The position numbers were made by a program, and so were the translations under genes. Shown one piece after another: positions 5,362 to 39,090 of a stretch of DNA of 54,640 bases (position 1 is its first letter; each line of letters begins with the position of its first letter). Source of the stretch: a bacterium (GTDB lineage: Bacteria > UBP14 > UBA6098); NCBI GenBank assembly GCA_023145965.1, contig JAGLDC010000066.1, forward strand, positions 1 to 54,640, given 5' to 3'. The notes beneath the pieces are model-generated. The model had not been told where the DNA came from, did no database searches, and saw only the letters and a program-made list of their open reading frames with translations.

Positions 5362-5463
5362 ACGGATTGTCACGATTTTTGCTTGGAAGCTTAGAATTTA
5401 GCAGCCTTTTTTCCGCATGCAAAAATCCCCCCCTAAACCCACGACTCTTCCGCGCCAATCCGT
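5362..5463 (+). repeat. Dispersed intergenic hairpin element, copy 1
   Basis: The outer stem is ACGGATTG (5362-5369) with CAATCCGT (5456-5463), 8 perfect pairs. TCACG (5370-5374) faces CGCGC. The inner arm is GATTTTTGC (5374-5382) with GCAAAAATC (5419-5427), 9 pairs around a T-rich loop, followed by a C/A-rich linker. It shares these blocks with copies at 20063, 29192 and 38869. It lies just upstream of the GDPD start. Confidence 0.8.
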
Positions 5464-5473
5464 TCTATTTATC

Positions 5474-5517
5474 GGTCGCAGTTTCTGCTATAATTTGCAG
5501 AAACCGCGACCTTTTTT
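5474..5517 (+). terminator. Strong stem-loop with T-tract between the secreted-protein gene and GDPD
   Basis: GGTCGCAGTTTCTGC (5474-5488) pairs with GCAGAAACCGCGACC (5497-5511) with a single mismatch and an 8-base loop. TTTTTT follows on the + strand. The neighbouring genes are both on the - strand, and on that strand the hairpin follows the stop of the 1300-aa gene directly but lacks a clean U-tract. It may work as a 3' end stabiliser there, or as a terminator against + strand transcription. Confidence 0.55.
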
Positions 5518-8500
5518 ATTTAAGAAGGACGACCCTTGCTATAGATAATTTTTCACCTGAGACTACTTTTACGAAGTAGATTCCGGTTGGAAGTTCATTA
5601 TTAGAGGCATCCTTTCCATTCCATGTTATTTTATTTATTCCGGGAGCAAGCTCAGCTTTGAGAGCGGACGTCTTATTACCGAGGATATCGTAAACCTCGA
5701 TATTCGCGAGTGCAGAAACAGGAGATTCAATAACCAATACAGTTTTGGCATTGAATGGATTGGGTTCGCAGCGCACTATGGATAGTTTCTCCGGAATTTC
5801 AATTGTTTGCTGAACATTATATTTGCCTTTTTGGAGGCTAATTATATCTCCGTTATGATATTCATGGTTATCGACAATTAGAATAACTTTTCCCGGGCAA
5901 TCCAGAGTGAGGTTAATATCTTCGGAGCAAATTATCAACCAATCGATGGACGAGATTTTGCGACGATAGGAAATACCATCAGCGAAAAGTGCTGCTTTCG
6001 GAAGCGCCATACCTGGGGCTTCTGGCGGAAGTGCAACATCTCCGGGCATAAAACCTTCGGGGCAGGTTTCTAGGTAAGGTAATTCGAGTGTAATCTCGTC
6101 GTTTATCAAGCGATTTACCCAGAGCGGCTGAAGTTCTGGAGTCATTTTACGAGAGTAATCCGATGGGACATGAATTGTAGCATCGAACATAGCCAATAAC
6201 CAATAGGCTTTGTTAGGAATAAGCGAATCGGTTTCGATATATGTTCCGTCTTCGTATGTATATAAAGCACCGGATATCGCGCCCCCTGGTGTCGAGGCTA
6301 TTGATGAGACTGCAAGCGGAGTCGATATTGCTCCTATAAGGTTCCATCCGGGATATATTGAGAAGAGATAGTTCTCGATCTCTATGCCGGCATATTCGAT
6401 ATAGCGGGAGCTGTCCGACCATACCCAATATCCCTCACCAGCGTGAATGCGTTCGGTGTTAGCATAACGGAATTCGGGGGCGAGATAACGATAAACTCCC
6501 AACGATGTATTGAAAACCTCAGCGGCTGTTCTCTCGGTTGGAATAGCCGGACAGCTAACCATGTTCCAACCGGTTGAGAGGGCTTGTTCGGAATAGACGG
6601 GTTCTTCAAGCTCCCAATCAATTATTAAAGTATCGTTACGATTAAAATAGCATACTGAATCCCTTTTCATATCTGAAAGATGGTTGATTCGGAACTCCCC
6701 CTCGGGAAGTGATGCCGGATTCCATCGGGCTATACCGTTAGGCTCGTTATCTGTGATTATTATCCACCGTTTAGGAGGAGTCACATCGCGTATGTCCCTG
6801 GTGAGCCTGTTCATAAGTGGATAATCTTCGTCGGAAATAGTGAACCAGCCATTGACACGCCACAAAGGTGGTGGAATAAACTGAACATCGAGACCGGAAT
6901 TATAGCCATCGGTCCCCGGGCCAGATGCTCCAAACGTAAGCACGAAATCCTCAGAAGGTGTTCCTGCAGTGCGGTTAAGATAGATATCGCAGGAGAAGAA
7001 TTCCGGTTCGAGTTCCACCATGAAAAAGCCATCCTCATGCGTCACTAAAGGACTTCCTTCGTTGAACACGATGGTATCTATGATTATCTGGCAATAATCG
7101 CCACCAGAGGCATTACAATCGACCTCTGCTAGAAGATAAAGCAATATACCCTCCATGCCGGATGTTAAAGGCATTCCGGAAGCAGAGGCATGAATTTTAC
7201 CGAGCGCAAAATCGATAATAACATCGGAAATCGCCCAACCATCAATGTATGAGGAATCGGTTATAATATCGAGCGGATGCAAAATTTCGGGGTTGACGGA
7301 AAATTCCATCTCAATATCGGCTATCCAACTATAATCAAGGCCGTCGATATAGAGCGGAATAAGAACGGTATCGCAACGCGCACCTGATTCGTTGGAGAAC
7401 CAGATGAAGCGCTCGCGCATATTAATGAAAGACCAACAATCAGCCATGAGATTATCGGGGCAATAATCAGTGGTGTCTGTGCCATAAACACAAACCATTA
7501 TTGATTCTGCAGCTATAATCGGCTCGGATGGAGTCCAACTAATAAACCAGAGACTGTCATCGAAAACAAGCGAATAGTCGTTTATTGTGTCTCCCAACAC
7601 TGTGAAAACTATAGTGGCTGTATCGAGGCCGGAACCATAATCAACAATATTCGCGGATATCATAGGTGTCGGTTCATCGATGATACTATCCGGCATGGGA
7701 ATCCTGTTAGATACAACCGGAGGTTCGAGATCAACAAAGAAATCCCAGCAAAGAGGTTCAGTTAAATAGCCTCCACAAGTGTTTTCGAGCGAATTAAGAC
7801 AAACATGGACAGTGTCGCCATCGGAGAAGTAGTTCGTAGAATCGGGGGTATATATTAAATACATGGTATCGATAAGGGTTAACTGACCATCACCAACTGT
7901 ATGAAGTTCGCCATCGATTGATATCTCTATACTCGGCACGACTATCTCACAATCGATAGCATAAAGAATAGTCGCAAGAAAATCGAGTCCCACAGCAACA
8001 CCGGTAAGATCACAAGCCTCTATAGTCAGAGTATCCGAACCGGAGTGCATCGATGGCAACATATCGAACTCGAAAAGATGATTCCATGTTGCACCATCAT
8101 CATCAGCGCCGATAGAATCGCCGTTCATATAAAAAGTTGCGGTGTTATCACAATACATTTTCACGCTAGCCGAATCTATAACGGTCCCCGGTGGCGTCTC
8201 AATAATCGACCTAAAAGTCAAACAACGGTGAAGGATGGTTCCACTATAAACACTATCCCAAATCCATGAAGAGGTCGGAAAGACATAAGAACCCCAACCA
8301 CTAAAGGAAATATCGACAGCCGGCACCCATGAACCGGAAATTGTATCGTAATATTCGGTGCTGGTAGAACTACTCGGTATCTGCCTCTCGATACGCATAG
8401 ATCCTTCGGTGCCAATGATCATCGTGATAGGCTGGTTTTCGCACGATGTCCATGTATTGGGGAGCGGTTCGATTATCTCAGCTGTCACTGGTGGCGCTGT

Positions 8501-20029: not shown

Positions 20030-20062
20030 CCTCGAAATGCTTTGAAGTAAACTCCCCCCTCC

Positions 20063-20167
20063 GGCGCTGTCACGATTTTTGCTATTTCGTAATTTTGGTG
20101 TTTTTTCTATTATTTCCCCGGGCAAAAATCCCCACCAAACAACCACCATCCCACTCGTGCCAGCGCC
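20063..20167 (+). repeat. Dispersed intergenic hairpin element, copy 2
   Basis: The outer stem is GGCGCTG (20063-20069) with CAGCGCC (20161-20167). TCACG (20070-20074) faces CGTGC (20156-20160) with four of five pairs. The inner arm is GATTTTTGC (20074-20082) with GCAAAAATC (20122-20130). The C/A-rich linker 20131-20155 is unpaired. It lies between the divergent folD and nfnA promoters. Confidence 0.85.
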
Positions 20168-20405
20168 TAACTATAGGTCGTTTTAATCAGGGCACAAGCC
20201 CTGATCAAACGCCGGAATTTCTTTGCCACATAAATAAAGTTCATTTTGGGCGTCGGATTTATTCGTTAGACGGAAAGCTGGCTTTCCATCGGCGAATAAA
20301 TCAGCGAAAGGCCGGAATAAAATATGCATTAAGGAACTCGATTTTCACCCGGCCTAACGCCAGCCTTTGAGGCCATAGGTCGAGAAGGCCGACGCCCCGG
20401 CGACA
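20168..20405. repeat. Highly structured intergenic block with several hairpins
   Basis: It fills the folD-nfnA gap directly after repeat copy 2. Hairpin A is ATCAGGGC (20186-20193), loop ACAA, GCCCTGAT (20198-20205), extended by CGTTT (20179-20183) with AAACG (20207-20211). Hairpin B is GATTTATTCG (20256-20265) with CGAATAAATC (20293-20302), with nested GGAAAGC/GCTTTCC (20272-20278/20281-20287). ATAGGTCG occurs twice (20173, 20385), and CCTAAC twice (20165, 20351). A 91-codon reading frame crosses the block but shows no protein-like features. It may be a composite palindromic repeat or a structured RNA. Confidence 0.55.
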
Positions 20406-29161: not shown

Positions 29162-29191
29162 CTCTCAGGTGGAATTCCGCCTCCACCCCCA

Positions 29192-29294
29192 CCGCTGTCA
29201 CGATTTTTGTTATCGAGTTATTTTACTATTATCAGCTTTATTTTCTTGTTCAAAAATCCCCATTAGCACCACACTTCACAACCCGTGCCAGCGG
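29192..29294 (+). repeat. Dispersed intergenic hairpin element, copy 3
   Basis: The outer stem is CCGCTG (29192-29197) with CAGCGG (29289-29294). TCACG (29198-29202) faces CGTGC (29284-29288). The inner arm is GATTTTTG (29202-29209) with CAAAAATC (29251-29258). It occupies the gap between two convergent genes. Confidence 0.85.
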
Positions 29295-29317
29295 CCCCCT
29301 TTTAAACTGCATATTTT

Positions 29318-38719: not shown

Positions 38720-38868
38720 TATAAACCTCCCAAAAGGAAACAGAGAGTAATATATGGCTGGGTTTACGCAAGTCAAGAAAAATACAATAAACCACTTCGG
38801 AGATTAATCTTCATCAAATTATACCTATTAAAATGCACCCCTTTTAAAAAACCCATGAAAGCAAAGAA

Positions 38869-39001
38869 GCTGGCGCGGGCGGCGGCGCGCTATTTGCCGC
38901 CTGCAAATAGCGCGACATCCGTGAAGGGTAGATGGGATTTTTGCGCGAAATAAATCAAGATAAAACTACGAAATAAACGCAATAGCAAAAATCGTGATAG
39001 C
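38869..39001 (-). repeat. Dispersed intergenic hairpin element, copy 4 (inverted, with extra arm)
   Basis: On the - strand: GCT then A, TCACG, GATTTTTGC (38985-38993) pairing with GCAAAAATC (38936-38944), then the C-rich linker and CGCGCCA. A perfect extra hairpin GCGCTATTTGC/GCAAATAGCGC (38887-38897/38903-38913) is inserted in the linker and makes this copy about 30 bp longer. The outer stem is the weakest of the four (three pairs then mismatches). The remainder of the 371-bp gap 38720-39090 shows nothing else. Confidence 0.75.
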
Positions 39002-39090
39002 GCTATAACTGAGTAAAAACAGAATTAGCCCAGCCGGTATCTGCGCTTCTAATTGCAATCTTACAATGCCAACAAAAATCCCGCAAAGGC

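Follow-up and report, generated by a model that had tools for sequence, protein, structure and literature searches.

The window analysed here, a stretch of 54,640 nucleotides from a UBP14 bacterium of the UBA6098 lineage (contig JAGLDC010000066.1), contains four copies of a dispersed hairpin element. A sequence check found these look-alike elements at all the positions given for them in the first-pass annotation, and their bounds, set here by a covariance model (R1), shifted by only a few nucleotides. The copy at 20062–20168 (plus strand, bit score 92.7) is a short form, which lacks the second hairpin described below. Its outer stem is formed by the 5' arm CGGCGCTG (20062–20069) and its partner CAGCGCC (20161–20167). 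TCACG (20070–20074), part of the conserved arm TGTCACG, faces the conserved 3' arm CGTGCCA (20156–20162; consensus CGCGCCA) and includes a conserved T.C mismatch. The 5' strand of the inner stem, GATTTTTGC (20074–20082), is paired with GCAAAAATC (20122–20130), and a C/A-rich unpaired linker (20131–20155) leads to the 3' arm, all of these parts being on the plus strand. The copy at 5362–5463 (plus strand) has ACGGATTG/CAATCCGT as its outer stem and an ortholog in a genome of the same genus (L138), and the copy at 29190–29296 (plus strand) lies in a gap between convergent genes that holds two simple modules in the related genome G004 (L134). In the fourth copy (38865–39005, minus strand) the linker holds a second hairpin, GTCGCGCTATTTGC/GCAAATAGCGCGCC, at about 38884–38919. 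The C/A-rich linker had been described as unpaired; it is present, but it encloses a second hairpin in this copy. Roughly one in two of the copies aligned across the genome have such a hairpin, which is a simple form of the same motif, CTGTCACGAAATTTGC...GCAAATTTCGCGCCA.

The module core is TGTCACG-N5-TGC-loop-GCA-N5'-CGCGCCA. It is flanked by an outer stem that measures about 8 bp and mostly reads GCGCTG/CAGCGC, and the conserved arms TGTCACG and CG(C/T)GCCA pair with the T.C mismatch and, in 27 of 32 copies, with an additional A.C mismatch. The closing stem proposed by the first-pass annotation is paired but was drawn too short, as it comprises the outer stem together with the pairing of TGTCACG with CG(C/T)GCCA. 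In the window family, the inner stem GATTTTTGC/GCAAAAATC encloses a loop of about 40 nt, and the C/A-rich linker measures about 20–25 nt. In other phyla the element is simple, TGTCACG-8 bp-loop-8 bp-CGCGCCA, and has no linker; the stem of about 8 bp between the arms is free in sequence apart from its TGC/GCA top. Directly 3' of the 5362–5463 copy (5474–5518), GGTCGCA-GTTTCTGC-...-GCAGAAAC-CGCGACC followed by TTTTTT forms a terminator-like hairpin, which resembles a degenerate simple module and has the same A.C mismatch as the element.

The pattern GATTTTTG-N20..50-CAAAAATC has 37 matches in the 2.52 Mb genome and the reversed control pattern has none, so the pattern does not arise by chance. 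Over the 32 copies from which R1 was built, covariation amounted to 12 pairs and 38 cells altered on both sides, a level that none of 500 shuffles reached, and controls with slid partners gave far lower values. This bears out the earlier claim that the folded form is under selection. Within the window the inner stem does not testify to covariation, because GATTTTTG/CAAAAATC, although paired in each of the four copies, is identical in all of them; elsewhere its two strands co-vary, both in further copies and in relatives (GGTTTTTGC/GCAAAAACC, GCTTTTTGC/GCAAAAAGC). Double changes such as TCAATAAATTTG/CAATTTTATTGA are also clear in the second hairpin. Compensatory changes were also found at orthologous sites, with GGTTTTTGC/GCAAAAACC versus GATTTTTGC/GCAAAAATC at one locus (C14 and L139), and GCTTTTTGC/GCAAAAAGC plus GGCTG/CAGCC versus GGTTTTTGC/GCAAAAACC plus GGCCG/CGGCC at another (C36 and L135). 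These are cases of co-evolution at a single locus, which is better evidence than the comparison of different copies.

Among exact-arm modules from all sources, at least 6 of the 8 inner positions are paired in 113 of 133, and pairing was not a criterion for their selection; their inner stems comprise 46 distinct 8-mers, nearly all of which end in TGC, and at the IMG/VR places at least 7 of 8 pairs are formed in 31 of 39. We give hardly any credence to the idea that the window family is a lineage-specific repeat and that hairpins elsewhere are unrelated and resemble it by convergence or chance. A few pattern matches are indeed taken as chance, namely those in Nostoc/Anabaena, Kaistella and Clostridia, in which the 3' arm is missing, and the exact-pattern match L268. 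However, those 113 of 133 modules share the 14 fixed arm bases, the TGC/GCA top and both mismatches and have free stems that pair, which contradicts a chance resemblance and leaves room for convergence.

The first-pass annotation had extrapolated to hundreds of copies per genome; R1 finds 59 places at E<0.001 in 2.5 Mb, that is, about 60 copies. Copies restricted to the window and stems that do not co-vary, the two outcomes that it had named as counter-evidence, were not what we observed. Four members of the family carry 7, 19, 42 and 6 copies (R1), whereas R1 has no match in the 12 remaining genomes searched from the class, nor in 44 others. By a pattern scan of named genomes, the family with the element includes UBP14 UBA6098, SpSt-1142, B46_G16 and CSMAG_3036, and the same scan detects it in other phyla, in Melioribacteraceae, Bacteroidales, Marinilabiliaceae, Spirochaetes and HGW-Firmicutes-14. 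A covariance model of the simple module (R2) adds 6 further genomes among 386 sampled, and 27 of 296 Spirochaetota; these prevalences are lower bounds, because the large genome-wide searches were filtered and 12–16 candidates were scored per genome. Viral contigs gave no match to the initial search pattern, and the module pattern occurs on 38 IMG/VR contigs, at many of which it is attC-like. No paper on the element was found among open-access articles, so that an earlier description in a closed journal may exist.

The two strands of the element are not equivalent. When the complementary strand is read, A.C turns into a G.T pair and T.C into G.A. With DNA parameters, this strand gives the better fold in 112 of 113 modules and in 55 of the genome's own 59 copies; with RNA parameters, it does so in 106 of 113 and 54 of 59, respectively. 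Part of this strand bias stems directly from the conserved arms. Strong folding with RNA parameters in 54 of 59 copies, the covariation, and the T-runs that follow several copies, not all, would suit a structured RNA (such as a small RNA, a hairpin that stabilises RNA or an element at transcript ends) on the transcribed TGGCGCG...CGUGACA strand. We nevertheless consider this distinctly improbable. Intergenic copies lie in 32 tandem, 10 convergent and 8 divergent gaps, in agreement with the earlier statement that the element has no fixed gene context, and in the tandem gaps 18 copies have the orientation of the genes and 14 the opposite one, so that there is no orientation bias. Moreover, Rfam 15 at gathering score returned tRNAs only and no match for the element, and the module occurs within attC, which is a DNA recombination site.

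Some copies are old and hold their place and orientation in other genera, where the flanking proteins are 53–88% identical. Others are recent: in G002, a UBA6098 genome, about 14 near-identical dispersed copies (L081–L094) lie within a composite repeat of over 200 bp, and their near-identity indicates a recent amplification. The check for target-site duplications that the first-pass annotation had recommended revealed none, as direct repeats at copy edges show no clear excess over shuffled pairings, and no clean empty site was found for a dispersed copy. The flanks of 58 copies contain at most 0.44 bit of information per position, with no conserved flank and no tag; in particular, there is no unpaired GTAG or CGTC at the end of the palindrome. 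An alternative reading is a static site, in which a conserved host DNA-binding or nucleoid protein would bind the cruciform-extruded hairpin or the duplex inverted repeat, the copies being immobile and kept for function, and integrons would exploit the same host protein at attC. We regard this explanation as doubtful, though far from negligible. It is consistent with orthologous copies that, between genera, have kept both position and orientation while their stems changed in a compensatory way, with arms that are invariant while the stems vary freely, and with the absence of target duplications. However, the patchy distribution, the lineage-specific outer stems and loops and the recent amplification in G002 look like the marks of spreading repeats, and a simple inverted repeat read as duplex would hardly be expected to show the constant asymmetry between left and right arms.

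The module is also found at the tips of integron attC sites, a shared core that the first-pass annotation had not foreseen. In HGW-Firmicutes-14, a search for core boxes (GCCTAAC...GTTAGGC and its variants) retrieved 15 attC sites, and every one has the module or a variant of it at the tip. The module is present in all 16 attCs of a spirochaete array (G587), and attC tip modules occur in G301, Gracilinema and Treponema-like arrays as well. In G519, nearly the same attC exists as a 66 bp form without the module and a 143–144 bp form with it, a contrast that is a tip replacement and not a clean insertion. On plasmids (L349–L351), module-bearing attCs are located behind aphA16 and aac(6')-F72, and behind a DUF3788 gene next to aac(6')-Ia; these are aminoglycoside-resistance cassettes, and the resistance cassettes that carry the module include those of hospital plasmids. 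One IMG/VR contig has two sites (L305 and L333) with common arms and different stems, and further attC types occur in IMG/VR. In spirochaetes, HGW-Firmicutes-14 and plasmids, the module-bearing sites have R and L boxes and a cassette array. In the attCs examined by eye, the better-folding strand appears to be the recombining strand, as judged from the extra base of the L box; this assignment follows the usual attC convention. An HGW-Firmicutes-14 attC of 240 bp (L161, 490–730, minus strand) contains two tip modules, whose stem halves also pair crosswise.

A published survey noted T. succinifaciens attCs of 63/68 versus 132 bp, and described sequence conservation of attC as restricted to the AAC and GTT triplets (PMC3607928), whereas in some of the lineages analysed here conservation extends to a 14-base motif at the tip. 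Like attC, the element would be a hairpin of folded single-stranded DNA; both have unpaired bases that are conserved and favour one strand, and in several lineages the module fills the variable terminal structure of attC. Unlike attC, the window copies have no R and L boxes and no integrase: no conserved outer R''/L''/L'/R' boxes (RYYYAAC...GTTRRRY) surround the dispersed window copies, and no integron integrase scored above the cut-off in the window family, where IntI was accordingly dismissed as the cause. Because attC tips of at least four lineages have the core in common with them, the dispersed copies might be taken for remnants of single, SALIN-like attC sites of which only the tip survived after loss of the R and L boxes. 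This origin is very improbable, considering not only the missing integrase but also that no sequence is conserved beyond the outer stem, that the C/A linker and the second hairpin are absent from the attCs looked at, that there are about 60 copies with family-specific outer stems, and that so far no copy in any relative retains RYYYAAC/GTTRRRY arms.

BOX, RUP, Correia and other modular intergenic repeats or MITEs are, like the element, modular, dispersed and non-coding, with an optional internal hairpin. DDE-type MITEs are marked by target-site duplications and by the terminal inverted repeats of a resident IS; the element differs in having no target duplication and apparently no terminal inverted repeat of a known IS. 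The closest likeness in kind is to REP/BIME/REPIN sequences with TnpA-REP (RAYT) of the group 2 type, which are also dispersed intergenic imperfect palindromes, present in many copies, whose stem includes a conserved zone of mismatch. Copy numbers in the tens, variants specific to lineages, multi-hairpin composites and a preferred strand are further common traits. In E. coli, TnpA-REP requires the conserved mismatch zone of REP and reads imperfect folded hairpins (PMC8266576). REP super-families are marked by a GTAG/CGTC tag (PMC3733652), which the element lacks. It is also longer (about 60–150 nt), its arms are conserved across phyla, some copies reside at attC tips, and no RAYT is consistently flanked by copies. 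Since defining features of REP, REPIN, MITE and attC fail for the window copies, we claim only that the element works like one of these, not that it belongs to one.

A protein of 133 residues resembling Y1/HUH transposases is encoded at G000:C80:26769–27101 (L034; orthologs L242–L245 and L252). Its gene is single-copy and syntenic in all five genomes of the family, and the HxH motif and catalytic Tyr are invariant in the intact-looking protein, a putative domesticated nuclease. A copy of the element lies within 1.5 kb of this gene only in G002 and G003, and in none of G000, G001 and G004. Y1_Tnp is found in 14 of 18 module-bearing genomes and also in most other relatives (43 of 61 genomes sampled), and is about equally common in module-free relatives; a Y1/HUH transposase was therefore rejected as the cause and kept only as a candidate.

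We tentatively favour, as possibly rather than probably correct, a REP-like non-autonomous hairpin that acts as folded single-stranded DNA, is bound by a protein, was amplified in some genomes and is harboured at attC tips. Its fold, its distribution and its occurrence in attC are established by the analysis, and its mobility, protein binding and single-stranded action are what we infer. Among the three guesses of the first-pass annotation, the REP-like palindromic repeat fits best, while a cis-regulatory RNA fits poorly. The active form would most likely be the strand 5'-TGGCGCG-stem-loop-stem-CGTGACA-3', whose fold a protein may recognise by its arms and its unpaired position, in a manner similar to that of TnpA-REP on REPs and of IntI on attC. 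Copies would spread without coding capacity and become fixed in intergenic gaps, where selection would then keep them paired; in integron bearers, the same hairpin would have settled at the attC tip, with the better-folding strand on the recombining strand in the cases examined. A REP-like single-stranded hairpin would explain why an imperfect stem is conserved, why one strand is preferred, why copies have no set orientation to genes, why they were amplified in particular lineages and why they reside at attC tips. Against it, no transposase is tied to the element, and old copies that stay put also suit a static functional site.

A more far-reaching proposal, unlikely in our view, is that TGTCACG/CGCGCCA hairpins form an unrecognised cross-phylum class of single-stranded DNA elements with their own recognition protein, and that the attCs of several lineages, including those of antibiotic-resistance cassettes, acquired them or evolved from them, which would give attC a third conserved box. 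If this were so, it would help to explain the origin of attC sites and cassettes. The 14-base motif, found at the tips of attC sites as far apart as those of spirochaetes and of hospital plasmids, and as free repeats in integron-less bacteria, bears on the origin of attC and on the role of its variable tip; it makes testable whether the tip hairpin affects recombination or the choice of strand, and by which protein it is recognised. In addition, the covariance model labels an otherwise unannotated repeat in many metagenome genomes.

The composite repeat of G002 has flanks containing ...TTCCGAGTGAGGTTGATTGCGCT... and ...AAATGCCGTTTCGATACGCCC..., and next to the 20062–20168 copy (window 20180–20320) lie the palindromes ATCAGGGC...GCCCTGAT (about 20187–20206) and GATTTATTCG-...-CGAATAAATC (about 20256–20302), which suggest composite repeats as in G002 and Melioribacteraceae. 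In G273 (L210, L219), the modules, TTTGGCACG...CGTGCCAAA, come close to perfect palindromes and lie within a larger inverted repeat, either GGTAAAACC/GGTTTTACC or GGCAAAACC/GGTTTTGCC, which in turn seems to co-vary. In IMG/VR, the module lies inside a further recurrent palindrome at L307, L309, L322, L323 and L325, and inside another one at L310, L317, L332 and L335; neither is an obvious attC, and the two palindrome types may be other cassette or repeat types.
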